A stretch of DNA of 13,102 nucleotides from Mariprofundaceae bacterium (GTDB taxonomy: Bacteria; Pseudomonadota; Zetaproteobacteria; Mariprofundales; Mariprofundaceae). Below the pieces are notes generated by a model that saw only the letters and a list, made by a program, of their open reading frames with translations, made no database searches and was not told where the DNA came from. Below, piece by piece: positions 1-12,588 of the stretch. Made by a program: the position numbers and the translations under genes. The first letter of the stretch is position 1; each line of letters opens with the position of its first letter. Location of the stretch: positions 1 to 13,102 of the forward strand of contig JAUZQS010000065.1 of assembly GCA_030950875.1 (NCBI GenBank), read 5' to 3'.

Positions 1-939
1 GTTTGCATAATAACCATCTGCGGGGTTACCAATCGCCAACGATTTGGCAATCGTATTGGCTTTCACAGGATGAATCATATCCGTACCATCTTTCACAGAT
101 TTAGAAATCGGTGAACAACCTGTTGCTTGCGCACCATAAACGGCAGTATCGTTACCTTCGATGAGACCAAGTTTAATAAACTCTTTAATAGACTTATCAA
201 TCTTGGTACAAAGTGAACCAGATGCCATTGGCACAACCACGTGCTTGGGTGCTTTCCAGCCCAATTGCTCCATGATTTCATAACCCATGGATTTAGAGCC
301 TTCAGCATAAAATGGACGAATATTCACATTCACAAATGCCCAGGCATATTTACCCGCAACTTCTGAACACAAACGGTTCACATCGTCATACTGACCTCTA
401 ATACCGATGATGTTGGTACCAAAGATTCCCGCACCTAGAATTTTACCTTGTTCCAAATCTTCAGGGATAAACACATAAGATTCCAAACCCGCCGCCGCAG
501 CATTTGCAGCCACAGAGCCAGCCAAGTTACCTGTAGATGCACAAGCAACCGTTTTAAAGCCAAATTCAACAGCTTTAGAAAGTGCTACTGCAACCACGCG
601 ATCTTTAAATGATAATGTTGGATAGCATACAGAGTCATTCTTAATGTAGAGCTCTTTAACACCCAAGGCTTCTGCAAGGCGTTTCGCACGAATTAACGGC
701 GTAAAGCCATTGTTCACCCCTACTTTTGGTTCACCATCAATCGGCAACAACTCTTTATAACGCCACATCGTTTGTGGCCGAGATTCAATCAATTCACGGG
801 TGAATTTACCTTCAAGTTTTTCATAATCATAGACTACTTCTAGTGGTCCAAAACAATATTCACAAACGTGCGTAGGCTGAATTTCATATTCTTGGCCGCA
901 CTCACGGCATTTTAAGGCACGAACAATACTTTCACTCAT
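1..939 (-). CDS. thrC: Threonine synthase, zinc-ribbon type (3' end beyond left edge)
   Basis: PLP-dependent enzyme that converts O-phosphohomoserine to L-threonine and phosphate, the last step of threonine synthesis in the cytoplasm. The 313 codons visible begin with a small zinc ribbon (Cys11, Cys14, Cys26, Cys29, as CREC...CEYC), then the fold-type II PLP domain. The Schiff-base lysine is Lys112 in LSFKDR, followed by the phosphate-binding ACASTGNLAGS at about 133-142. The zinc ribbon plus SFKDR arrangement matches the threonine synthase class shared by many bacteria, archaea and plants, not the E. coli ThrC class. The start has a GGAG about 9 nt upstream. It is preceded by a SAM-I riboswitch and an intrinsic terminator, so expression should fall when SAM is abundant. 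The C-terminal part and any downstream operon partner lie outside the window. Confidence 0.95.
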   Translation of the reverse strand, partial: MSESIVRALKCRECGQEYEIQPTHVCEYCFGPLEVVYDYEKLEGKFTRELIESRPQTMWRYKELLPIDGEPKVGVNNGFTPLIRAKRLAEALGVKELYIKNDSVCYPTLSFKDRVVAVALSKAVEFGFKTVACASTGNLAGSVAANAAAAGLESYVFIPEDLEQGKILGAGIFGTNIIGIRGQYDDVNRLCSEVAGKYAWAFVNVNIRPFYAEGSKSMGYEIMEQLGWKAPKHVVVPMASGSLCTKIDKSIKEFIKLGLIEGNDTAVYGAQATGCSPISKSVKDGTDMIHPVKANTIAKSLAIGNPADGYYAN

Positions 940-981
940 GTTTCACTACTCCAATCAAAACAGTTGCCGAAATCCATAAAC

Positions 982-1011
982 AAAAAAACCTCCGCGAGAT
1001 AAGCAGAGGTT
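982..1011 (-). terminator. Intrinsic terminator of the SAM riboswitch (attenuator)
   Basis: On the minus strand, AACCTCTGC (1011-1003) pairs with GCGGAGGTT (995-987), giving a 9-bp stem with one G-U pair and a 7-nt loop, followed by a run of T. It lies between the SAM-I aptamer and the thrC start, where the expression platform of an S-box should be. The 5' arm can instead pair with bases just after aptamer helix P1: GGGTTGA (1058-1052) with TCAACCT (1013-1007), extended by GATAG of the P1 3' strand. This gives a mutually exclusive antiterminator. Confidence 0.85.
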
Positions 1012-1058
1012 GAAAAGAAAATCGCTAGTAAAAAAAACGATCATAAACTCATCAACCC

Positions 1059-1195
1059 GACTATCATCGCTCTCGGCACAAAACCGAGCAGGCGTTGGCA
1101 CCATTCTCCACATCATCAAAGCATCGCTTTAACTTTGTAGTCGGTTGCCGCAGTTTCACAAGGCCTGTAACCCTCCACTGCTCTGGATAAAAATC
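1059..1195 (-). ncRNA. SAM-I (S-box) riboswitch aptamer upstream of thrC
   Basis: Read on the minus strand, the region carries the S-box core in order: TATCCAGAG, then GTGGAGGG, GGCC, TGAAAC, GGCAACC, then GGTGCCAACGCCTGC, and a closing GATGATAG. P1 pairs GATTTTTATC (1195-1186) with GATGATAGTC (1068-1059), with one U-U mismatch. P2 includes GCAG paired with CTGC around the kink-turn. P3 ends in the hairpin AAAGC-GAT-GCTTT (1130-1118). P4 is CTCGG-loop-CCGAG (1088-1072). In this family SAM binding stabilises P1, which lets the terminator form. The class assignment rests on motif order and helices, not on a covariance-model score. Confidence 0.93.
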
Positions 1196-1290
1196 GGATC
1201 CAAAATATGTATGGCGCATTATTCACACTAAGAAAAAAAAAACAAGCGCTTTAAAATAATCACCAACATCAAAAAAACATTCCCCTTAAA

Positions 1291-1321: not shown

Positions 1322-1582
1322 ATGGTTTCATGGATGCAAATATCTCCTGTTTCTCATGCACAAAACGCATTCAATACGATCATTAATCCACAACAACCTG
1401 CCGATACGAATCCAATTACTACTGCAAAAGCAGCAGATCAAGTATCCATATCTTCCGCAGCAAAAGCCTTGGCTAGTGGCGAAGCAACTGAATCTCCAAG
1501 TACTGAATCCAGCGAATCTTCTGCCGCACAAAAAACTGAAGGTGAAGCAAGCTCTGGGAAAAGCATCAATATTACTGCCTAA
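1322..1582 (+). CDS. Small Ser/Ala/Glu-rich protein of unknown function
   Basis: An 86-residue protein if translation starts at 1322; an in-frame ATG at 1334 would give an 82-residue protein starting MQISPV. Neither start has a convincing Shine-Dalgarno. It has no signal peptide or membrane segment. Residues about 39-51 read DQVSISSAAKALA, followed by a hydrophilic Ser/Glu/Ala tail that looks disordered. The motif (D-x-V-S-I-S-S-A-A-K-A-L) resembles short segments in small flagellum-associated proteins, including the N-terminal part of some FlgM homologues, but the C-terminal sigma-28-binding helices of FlgM are not evident. It stands alone, divergent from thrC and convergent with nadE. I do not assign a function; the composition suggests a real protein. 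Confidence 0.6.
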   Translation: MVSWMQISPVSHAQNAFNTIINPQQPADTNPITTAKAADQVSISSAAKALASGEATESPSTESSESSAAQKTEGEASSGKSINITA

Positions 1583-10562: not shown

Positions 10563-11585
10563 CTAAATCAATACATACACAGCAAAATACCCGCCCACAG
10601 TGAGCCAGACAAACAGAATCGCTGCAAGAATAAATGGTTTGATGCCCACACCTTTGAGTTTATCAAAGTTTGTTTCCATTCCCAAAGCTGTCATTGCCAT
10701 GGTTAATAAAAACTGATCAATATGCTGTAATACCATGACCCATGATGCAGGTAACAGATGAAGAGAGTTAAACCCAACGATTCCCAGGAAGCCCAAGGCA
10801 AACCAGGGCACCGTTAATGATGTATTCGTATCTTTGCCTTCACCGTTACCATATTTGGCCCACCACCATCCCATAAACAGTAAAGCAGGAACAAGCAGCA
10901 TCACACGGGTCATTTTAACAATCACCGCATCATTGCTCACCGTTTGACCTATATCACTTGCTGCACCGACAACCTGCGCTACTTCATGCACCGTTGCGCC
11001 GATGAAAACACCCCAACCATTTGCATCAAGATTCAAGATGCCCCATTGATAAATGAGCGGATAAATCACCATTGCCAACGTACCAAATACAACAACAGTT
11101 GCGACCGCAGCGGCTGTTTGATGGCCTTTAGCCTTAATAACATCTTCAAAAGCCAAGATAGCAGCCGCGCCGCAAATCGCGCTGCCAGCCCCAGTAAGTA
11201 GCGTTGTTTGTTTATCCATACCCAATAGATAAACACCCACAATATAAGCAATGCATAGTGTGCTGATTACAATAAAGGATGCCGCAGCGAGACCAACCCA
11301 ACCAATCATCATAACTTCTTGCAATGTGATATAAAAACCATAAAGAATCACTGCCAGACGAAGAATTCTCCTTGCTGTGAAGCTGATGCCCGGCAACCAG
11401 GCTTCCGGCATACGGTGATGCAGCGTATTGGCATAGACAATACCTAACACTATGCCAATAATCAGTGGACTTATACCCAGTTGATGAACCCCAGACCATT
11501 GGCTGATTTGTGTGGCAGCCAATGCAAACAGGGTAACAAATAAAATACCATTGTTAGTATCGGCACGTTTTTGCTTACTGAACAT
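10563..11585 (-). CDS. yeiH: YeiH/UPF0324 family membrane transporter (putative sulfate exporter family)
   Basis: A 340-residue inner-membrane protein with about ten hydrophobic segments and the usual length of the UPF0324 (YeiH) family. Family blocks are LGISPLIIGIVLGI (36-49), LLTGAGSAICGAAAI (129-143), GATVHEVAQVVGA (196-208), KMTRVMLLVP (224-233) and AMTALGMETN (297-306). Family members are annotated as putative sulfate exporters. In E. coli, yeiH lies next to the LysR-type gene yeiE, which has been linked to sulfite stress; this window keeps that pairing in divergent form. The substrate is not proven by the sequence. The start has CGGAG 7 nt upstream. The gene is followed by the secreted-protein remnant at 10533. 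Confidence 0.93.
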   Translation of the reverse strand: MFSKQKRADTNNGILFVTLFALAATQISQWSGVHQLGISPLIIGIVLGIVYANTLHHRMPEAWLPGISFTARRILRLAVILYGFYITLQEVMMIGWVGLAAASFIVISTLCIAYIVGVYLLGMDKQTTLLTGAGSAICGAAAILAFEDVIKAKGHQTAAAVATVVVFGTLAMVIYPLIYQWGILNLDANGWGVFIGATVHEVAQVVGAASDIGQTVSNDAVIVKMTRVMLLVPALLFMGWWWAKYGNGEGKDTNTSLTVPWFALGFLGIVGFNSLHLLPASWVMVLQHIDQFLLTMAMTALGMETNFDKLKGVGIKPFILAAILFVWLTVGGYFAVYVLI

Positions 11586-11691: not shown

Positions 11692-12588
11692 ATGAATATT
11701 CATCAGGATCATCTTTTAAGTTTTGTCGCCTTGGTTCAGACAGGCAGCGTCAGTGCCGCAGCCAAATCCCGGTTCTTAACCCAGCCAGCCATTTCCAACC
11801 AGTTAAAGCGTTTACAGGAAACTGTTGGTATGCCACTTTATCGACGGCAGGGGCGTGGTGTTCAATTAACGGGGGCAGGTGAAGCCTTTTATATTCATGC
11901 CTTGAAAGTTCAACAGTCGATACAGGATTTAAACAGTTTTGCGGATGAACTTCACGGGTTGCAAGCTGGGCGGATTTATCTTTCCGCCAGTCAAACCATT
12001 GCAGGTTCTCTTCTACCCGCAGCACTGCTTTCTTTTCACCAGTTACATCCACAGATTGAGGTGTTTGTGAATAGTGTAAATAGCCAACAAGTATTTGAGA
12101 GCATGGATCACCATGATTTGGGTTTGGTGGAAAGCCCCTTACCGTCAAGTCTATCTGAGTGTTGCAGTGTTGAACCCCTTGGGGAAGATAAAATTGTCAC
12201 CGTGATGCCTATGAATCACCCTCTTGCAACATACAAATCCATTGAATTAAGTCAGCTTGAAGCTTATCCACTGATTTGGAGAGAACAAGGCTCAGGCACA
12301 CGGGAAGTACTAGAACGAGCATGGATGGCAACAACAAGGAAACAGCCCCATGTTCAGCTATGTATGGGGGGTGTATCGGCTGTACTTGAGTCAGTGCGCC
12401 AAGGCTTGGGAATTGGCGTGGTATCACAGTTTTGTTTGCCAACAGGAGAATCTATTTTAACCACTCGCCCATTTCACCCACAATTATCCCGTCCCATGAG
12501 TTTACTTCAGCCAAGGCATGCTTCACCGCTGGCGAAAAAATTAGTTGCTTTTCTCGTACCTTATCTGCGTTCACGATTAAGCCAATAA
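11692..12588 (+). CDS. LysR-type transcriptional regulator, YeiE-like, divergent from yeiH
   Basis: A 298-residue LysR-type regulator. The N-terminal winged helix-turn-helix (about 1-60) reads MNIHQDHLLSFVALVQTGSV, SAAAKSRFLTQPAISNQLKRL and MPLYRRQGRGVQLTGAGE, the classical LTTR signature. A linker helix (about 62-90) leads to a periplasmic-binding-protein-like effector domain. Its second lobe holds WREQGSGTREVLERA (about 196-210) and LESVRQGLGIGVVSQF (232-247), blocks shared with the CbbR/CysB/YeiE group. Neighbourhood with yeiH suggests a YeiE-like role in controlling the transporter. Two inverted repeats in the divergent region are its likely sites. No Shine-Dalgarno is seen before the start. 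Confidence 0.94.
   Translation: MNIHQDHLLSFVALVQTGSVSAAAKSRFLTQPAISNQLKRLQETVGMPLYRRQGRGVQLTGAGEAFYIHALKVQQSIQDLNSFADELHGLQAGRIYLSASQTIAGSLLPAALLSFHQLHPQIEVFVNSVNSQQVFESMDHHDLGLVESPLPSSLSECCSVEPLGEDKIVTVMPMNHPLATYKSIELSQLEAYPLIWREQGSGTREVLERAWMATTRKQPHVQLCMGGVSAVLESVRQGLGIGVVSQFCLPTGESILTTRPFHPQLSRPMSLLQPRHASPLAKKLVAFLVPYLRSRLSQ

Follow-up and report, generated by a model that had tools for sequence, protein, structure and literature searches.

The gene annotated as threonine synthase behind a SAM-I riboswitch of a Mariprofundaceae bacterium, one of the marine iron oxidisers, is most likely mislabelled and, judged by its regulation and the neighbours of its relatives, probably encodes a homocysteine-making enzyme of the MetM type. 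We hold with good confidence that the riboswitch is an OFF switch, which would govern the operon of this probable homocysteine synthase by transcription termination. The window, i.e. the whole analysed stretch of 13,102 nucleotides, contains the leader and the first part of the gene on its minus strand, with the following elements in the order of transcription:

1204–1211, minus strand: TACATATT, candidate −10 element for the promoter of the leader (by eye, unscored)
1192–1200, minus strand: 5′ strand of a P1 extension beyond the Rfam model; in the free minimum free energy (MFE) fold it pairs with 1062–1054 and holds GGGUU of the antiterminator strand
1061–1193, minus strand: SAM-I (S-box) aptamer with P1–P4 (Rfam RF00162, 71.2 bits, E 2.5e-15)
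1052–1070, minus strand: 5′ strand of the antiterminator, i.e. the P1 3′ strand plus GGGUUGA (1058–1052); duplex with 1013–994 of −17.6 kcal/mol, z −2.4
994–1013, minus strand: 3′ strand of the antiterminator, overlapping the 5′ arm, the loop and the beginning of the 3′ arm of the terminator
987–1011, minus strand: intrinsic terminator hairpin followed by a T tract; 9 pairs, 5 of them G-C, with two-sided changes in relatives
949–952, minus strand: GGAG, likely Shine-Dalgarno sequence outside the terminator (by eye)
1–939, minus strand: MetM-like candidate for a homocysteine synthase (ThrC family, PLP fold II), annotated as threonine synthase; first 313 residues, the reading frame being cut by the end of the window

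The complete SAM-I aptamer proposed in an earlier sequence-only reading of this DNA was recovered by the covariance search, whose match on the minus strand (1193–1061) covers the full model (positions 1–108) and exceeds the gathering threshold of 44.4 bits. SAM-I is the sole Rfam family that reaches its cut-off within the window, and no further copy was found in the corresponding assembly (1.7 Mb, 68.5% complete). The leader folds with −76.6 kcal/mol (z −3.95), and none of 200 shuffled sequences was equally stable. The riboswitch is a sound and ordinary member of its family. A consensus promoter scan called no promoter at 1204–1211 on the minus strand; ACATATT, a possible −10 element, is present in the leaders of many relatives. 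Divergent from the leader lies a short Ser/Ala/Glu-rich reading frame (1323–1582, plus strand), and elsewhere in the window a YeiH-like membrane protein (10563–11585, minus strand) is divergent from a LysR-type regulator (11692–12588, plus strand; all by eye). Beyond the order of the window, SAM-I is uncommon in Pseudomonadota: of the 398 genomes sampled, about 320 were covered and gave 15 matches, 14 of which exceed the cut-off, and the idea of a distribution common across the phylum was discarded on this count. At the eight of these 15 loci that were fetched (about 3 kb each), tblastn detected no MetM-like gene.

The predicted structures downstream of the aptamer form a mutually exclusive pair of terminator and antiterminator, and the modelled expression platform is of the standard SAM-I OFF design, whose dependence on SAM we infer. 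Both elements had been drawn in the sequence-only reading. A hairpin followed by a T tract was found at 1011–987, and the proposed pairing of 1058–1052 with 1013–1007 consists of seven standard base pairs from which the duplex continues through the P1 3′ strand. A single terminator-like site was found compared with 0.6 ± 0.9 in shuffled sequences, so that the terminator call is not significant when taken alone. The MFE fold of a transcript ending at position 992 contains the antiterminator, and that of the full leader, computed without ligand, contains the terminator, which lies 6.4 kcal/mol below the forced antiterminator; antitermination would thus need to be kinetic. In the P1 extension beyond the Rfam model, AUCCG on the 5′ side pairs with CGGGUU. 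In the SAM-bound state, P1 together with its 5′ extension would hold the antiterminator strand, the terminator would form, and transcription would stop before the gene. At low SAM, the antiterminator of 1070–1052 with 1013–994 would form and the operon would be transcribed.

The structural conservation of this platform was investigated in 83 leader stretches of zetaproteobacterial relatives (at least 80% identical, gene start present; some genomes occur twice because two collections were used), all of which contain the GGTGCCAA core. The 60 leaders that are distinct from the core to the T tract represent the conservation set, and both the terminator and the antiterminator are kept in them, which is the outcome that the sequence-only reading had proposed to look for in orthologous leaders. 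For the terminator helix, 540 cells were counted, of which 98.9% are paired, compared with at most 62.4% in slid registers; five of the nine pairs of the helix exhibit two-sided changes, and the median energy of the terminator is −12.7 kcal/mol. The six-pair core of the antiterminator is paired in 97.2% of 356 cells (slid registers: at most 64.9%) with two-sided changes in two pairs; its covariation score of 0.078 is exceeded by the slides of +1 (0.094) and +2 (0.082), and covariation alone is therefore no proof of this core. The long duplex of the P1 3′ strand and the linker with the 5′ arm and loop of the terminator has a median of −17.7 kcal/mol and a z-score below −2 in 52 of the 60 leaders. 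GGTTG was found in 45 of the 49 distinct leaders that were parsed (L076 and L079 are outside this set), and in 42 of these 45 the P1 extension covers at least four of the six antiterminator bases. The leaders of L010, L018 and L019 are without GGTTG; they differ in both the 5′ strand and the linker, and their antiterminator is predicted on other bases. A riboswitch that acts on translation, or a decayed element without any effect, is hardly conceivable given the two-sided changes of the terminator, its location with the T tract some 40 nt ahead of the start codon, and the position of the likely Shine-Dalgarno sequence outside the hairpin.

The protein encoded behind the switch is 95.5% identical over the shared stretch to the full-length equivalent of locus L032, and its closest public relatives are records of Mariprofundaceae, Mariprofundus and Ghiorsea, which identifies the window as zetaproteobacterial. 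Its designation as threonine synthase, which the sequence-only reading had adopted, is correct as a family name: NCBIfam TIGR00260 (cut-off 167.1) scores 209.7 bits with the cut protein of the window, 267.9 bits with that of L032 and 306.6 bits with the canonical paralog, and the five best-matching solved structures of the riboswitch-linked protein are all threonine synthases. As a statement of function the name probably does not stand, because the protein belongs to a separate clade and its relatives are located in a sulfur operon. The assembly of the window harbors a second relative with 33% identity, a canonical ThrC, directly after the homoserine dehydrogenase gene (hom), and both kinds are present in most genomes of the family among the matches listed. 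A tree of 34 rows resolves two separate groups with a support of 100/100 each, one composed of the 21 riboswitch-linked rows and the other of the 9 canonical ThrC rows of the family; the placement of the long outgroup rows in this tree is unsure. The characterised MetM is not among its rows, and its affiliation with the riboswitch-linked clade is suggested by the common architecture and by the Nonomuraea locus L125. Residues 10–34 of the window protein, i.e. its cysteine-containing N-terminus, match NinF (PF05810) in Pfam, a similarity that probably stems from cysteines common to both.

The two kinds are separated by 42 alignment columns (at least 19 of 20 MetM-like rows versus all nine canonical rows, the nine being close relatives), for example L139-A140 versus T94-S95, N206/R208/Y211 versus S161/N163/R166, and G350-G351 versus S296-A297. 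The residues common to all nine canonical rows are not shared by the MetM-like rows, and the differing columns may have a functional role; the literature search yielded no usable information on the active site of threonine synthase. The differences bear on the scenario of a bifunctional enzyme that forms both threonine and homocysteine from O-phosphohomoserine, with the switch tuning the share of methionine. A common family of the enzyme and threonine synthase would allow for such a dual role, and the available description of a Microcystis homolog hints at one (PMC12172450), but the consistent differences between the kinds and the presence of a dedicated ThrC in most family genomes, among the matches listed, make it unlikely.

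The neighbourhood of the gene was reconstructed from relatives, since the window itself stops inside it. Downstream matches at 56 zetaproteobacterial loci comprise a ThiS/MoaD-family carrier (55 loci), a NIL protein (54), CysK (54), a MoeB/ThiF-like E1 (51) and a sulfite/nitrite-reductase-like protein (43). The queries were taken from L032, and every miss concerns a locus whose sequence stops at most 2.7 kb past the MetM-like gene. Two features of MetM are found, namely a SAM riboswitch upstream (in the window, the family genomes and distant loci) and a sulfur-carrier gene nearby (in the relatives). The best PDB match of the carrier is chain C of 3dwg (86.7 bits), deposited as 9.5 kDa culture filtrate antigen cfp10A, which we take to be CysO of M. 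tuberculosis. The carriers of L032 (6281–6559), L037 (6282–6560), L052 (6286–6564) and L073 (6277–6573) have one extra residue (C or R) after the C-terminal Gly-Gly, and those of L086, L090, L094, L095, L100 and L125 terminate at Gly-Gly; a zetaproteobacterial carrier with an extra residue may need trimming before it is charged. The NIL gene of L032 (6696–6938) encodes a stand-alone protein of 80 residues (PF09383) that is kept in Zetaproteobacteria and in three loci of Verrucomicrobia, and DUF39 is absent from the family.

We propose the following route to methionine. Homoserine kinase would supply O-phosphohomoserine, from which the MetM-type enzyme would make homocysteine; the sulfur donor would be a thiocarboxylate on the ThiS/MoaD-like carrier encoded next to it and charged by the MoeB/ThiF-like E1 of the presumably co-transcribed operon. 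Homocysteine would be converted into methionine by MetH, and SAM would close the loop. If the target is a MetM-type methionine enzyme, the switch does its usual job on an unusual pathway.

The distribution of the candidate enzyme and of the established homocysteine routes was investigated in 74 genomes of the family, which contain 64 matches to SAM-I. The MetM-like gene is located 87–335 nt downstream on the same strand for 63 of them; the remaining one (G072) lies about 320 nt from a contig start and has no MetM-like gene among the matches listed. Three MetM-like matches without SAM-I lack their 5′ part, and seven genomes, two of them more than 90% complete, have neither the riboswitch nor the enzyme. 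MetA was detected in 15 genomes (G005, G042, G044–G047, G049–G051, G053, G054, G061, G064, G066 and G067), in all of which it adjoins a full-length member of Cys_Met_Meta_PP and in which the MetM-like gene is also present among the matches listed. The search for Cys_Met_Meta_PP, which found a match in all 14 control genomes, returned any match at all in 70 family genomes (58 above the Pfam cut-off); outside the 15, these are partial, score at most 40 bits and appear to be other enzymes of the aminotransferase fold. None of the MetX matches in 24 genomes is convincing (at best 25 bits over 66 of 351 positions), a negative result that rests on score and length since the cut-off of 500 bits is unreached even in the controls. 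DUF39 (HcyBio) was detected in three of the 14 control genomes and in none of the 74 family genomes, and the DUF39/NIL route to homocysteine, an idea derived from the NIL gene, was accordingly rejected.

No other homocysteine route among those searched was found in 59 of the 74 genomes, including all 11 of the genus of the window, where neither MetA nor a full-length enzyme of the MetB/MetY type, a convincing MetX or DUF39 was detected. MetA occurs in 12 of the 36 genomes that reach 90% completeness without exceeding 5% contamination, and 22 of the other 24 have the MetM-like gene among the matches listed (the exceptions are G021 and G039). Homoserine kinase has matches in 68 of the 74 genomes (60 over the cut-off, with a weak one in G032), including one in the assembly of the window. 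MetH is present in 60 of the 74; no match was obtained in the 68.5% complete assembly of the window. The MetM-type enzyme is probably the sole homocysteine route, under the control of one SAM switch, in most genomes of the family.

These data bear on the central claim of the sequence-only reading, i.e. that SAM controls the threonine branch point at the RNA level, which would be so if the gene encoded a true threonine synthase. Such an activity would agree with the TIGR00260 score, with the best structural matches and with the formation of threonine by the Microcystis homolog in vitro, as far as described in PMC12172450. It is at odds with the canonical ThrC next to hom, which is also found in most relatives among the matches listed, and with the sulfur-transfer genes in the neighbourhood; moreover, there is no clear logic in repressing threonine synthesis at high SAM, and most family genomes would be left without a homocysteine route among those searched if this enzyme did something else. 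We regard a true threonine synthase as very improbable and have abandoned SAM control of threonine synthesis, whose surprising appearance is probably due to the gene name. A seemingly odd target of a riboswitch can reveal that a gene is wrongly named, and SAM-I elements upstream of ThrC-family genes could mark candidates for re-annotation.

The pairing of SAM-I with a MetM-like enzyme extends beyond the Zetaproteobacteria. A protein search, which is blind to riboswitches, provided 21 loci outside this class, and in 14 of the 15 that were scanned with Rfam, SAM-I directly precedes the MetM-like gene, L099 from Clostridiales (42% identical) being the one without it. The loci L101, L102 and L104–L107 (at most 34% identical and outside the Rfam scan) lack the exact core motif, which is also missing in five of the 14 Rfam-positive loci (L089, L091, L092, L093 and L097), so that the motif test is weak. 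The 14 loci are labelled Verrucomicrobia (4), Planctomycetota (4), Actinomycetota (4), Acidobacteria (1) and unplaced bacterium (1). The label of L096 as Acidobacteria may be wrong, since this locus nests among the rows of Acidimicrobiia in the protein tree. Thirteen of the 14 are followed by a carrier match (for L097, its position is +2462; the sequence of L083 stops at the gene), and an E1-like match was found in eight. The top match from the plasmid collection, L125 of Nonomuraea gerenzanensis, exhibits SAM-I together with the enzyme (56%) and a carrier (52%), the latter being followed by a GroEL-type gene (by eye). Its record (NZ_LT559118.1, 11.85 Mb) is filed as plasmid I and looks like a chromosome. 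Ten of the 13 searched genomes from other phyla, including those of L094 and L095, encode a full-length member of Cys_Met_Meta_PP, and the MetM-like enzyme thus need not be the sole route there. We are inclined to a wider scenario, in which one SAM-I transcript carries the way from sulfite via carrier-bound sulfur to homocysteine as the only route of most Zetaproteobacteria, and in which the same pair of switch and enzyme, annotated as threonine synthase where names were seen, represents a methionine pathway that is widespread but has been overlooked, with members in at least four phyla (Pseudomonadota, Verrucomicrobiota, Planctomycetota and Actinomycetota) and also in Acidimicrobiia, to which Acidimicrobium ferrooxidans belongs.

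The Zetaproteobacteria would thereby gain a testable methionine pathway of relevance to a gap that Price et al. 2018 (PMC5764234) pointed out, according to whom at least one further homocysteine pathway was still to be found. Acidimicrobium ferrooxidans is among the organisms named there, which are described as lacking the traditional, the DUF39 and the thiocarboxylate pathways as then known, and the Acidimicrobiia loci L094 and L095 are a candidate for the missing pathway. The consulted parts of PMC12172450, PMC12452182 and PMC4239095 contain no report of a SAM switch on this gene in Zetaproteobacteria, and the main text of the last, which deals with methionine regulation in Proteobacteria, does not use the term “Zetaproteobacteria”. 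Within the one open-licence library that was searched, nothing was found that joins Mariprofundus with riboswitches, or Zetaproteobacteria with methionine biosynthesis and homocysteine.

The closest known system is MetM of Streptomyces albulus (Hasebe et al. 2024, 10.1128/aem.01247-24), which according to the excerpts of PMC12172450 converts O-phosphohomoserine into homocysteine and has a SAM riboswitch upstream. The ThrC-family enzyme, the upstream SAM riboswitch, the sulfur carrier and, as proposed here, the substrate O-phosphohomoserine correspond to MetM/MetO, and our reading would carry the pathway described in 2024 into a new class and probably into several phyla. Compared with the Streptomyces system as presented in these excerpts, the zetaproteobacterial cluster adds NIL, CysK, MoeB and sulfite-reductase-like genes, and most genomes seem to have no homocysteine route besides its enzyme. 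The Microcystis homolog shares 51.6% identity with MetM, has no SAM riboswitch and acts in vitro as threonine synthase and threonine deaminase; the neighbour of its gene resembles metO of S. albulus, a member of the sulfur-carrier family. One unidentified peak hints at a MetM-like activity, and in the part consulted the authors doubt a full MetM function in cells (PMC12172450). The behaviour of this homolog as a threonine synthase implies that kinship is no proof of the MetM reaction.

The aptamer with P1–P4, the logic of terminator and antiterminator and the probable methionine target are those of SAM-I (RF00162) in general, whereas the zetaproteobacterial host and the 5′ extension of P1 that pairs with the antiterminator strand are different. 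A protein thiocarboxylate as sulfur donor for homocysteine, as proposed here, has its counterpart in the methionine pathway of Wolinella succinogenes (Krishnamoorthy and Begley 2011, as cited in PMC5764234). This pathway differs with respect to Cys_Met_Meta_PP, which is full-length in only 15 of the 74 family genomes investigated here. The Wolinella system reportedly uses O-acetylhomoserine sulfhydrylase, a member of the Cys_Met_Meta_PP family. The CysO-CysM system of Mycobacterium tuberculosis (3dwg), whose product is cysteine, resembles the present one in its carrier, for which 3dwg chain C is the best PDB match. The plant threonine synthase is activated by SAM through allosteric control of the protein; the ThrC family is tied to SAM in both cases, but the control proposed here is exerted by RNA, and the riboswitch-linked protein matches the plant entry 1e5x with 108.5 bits.
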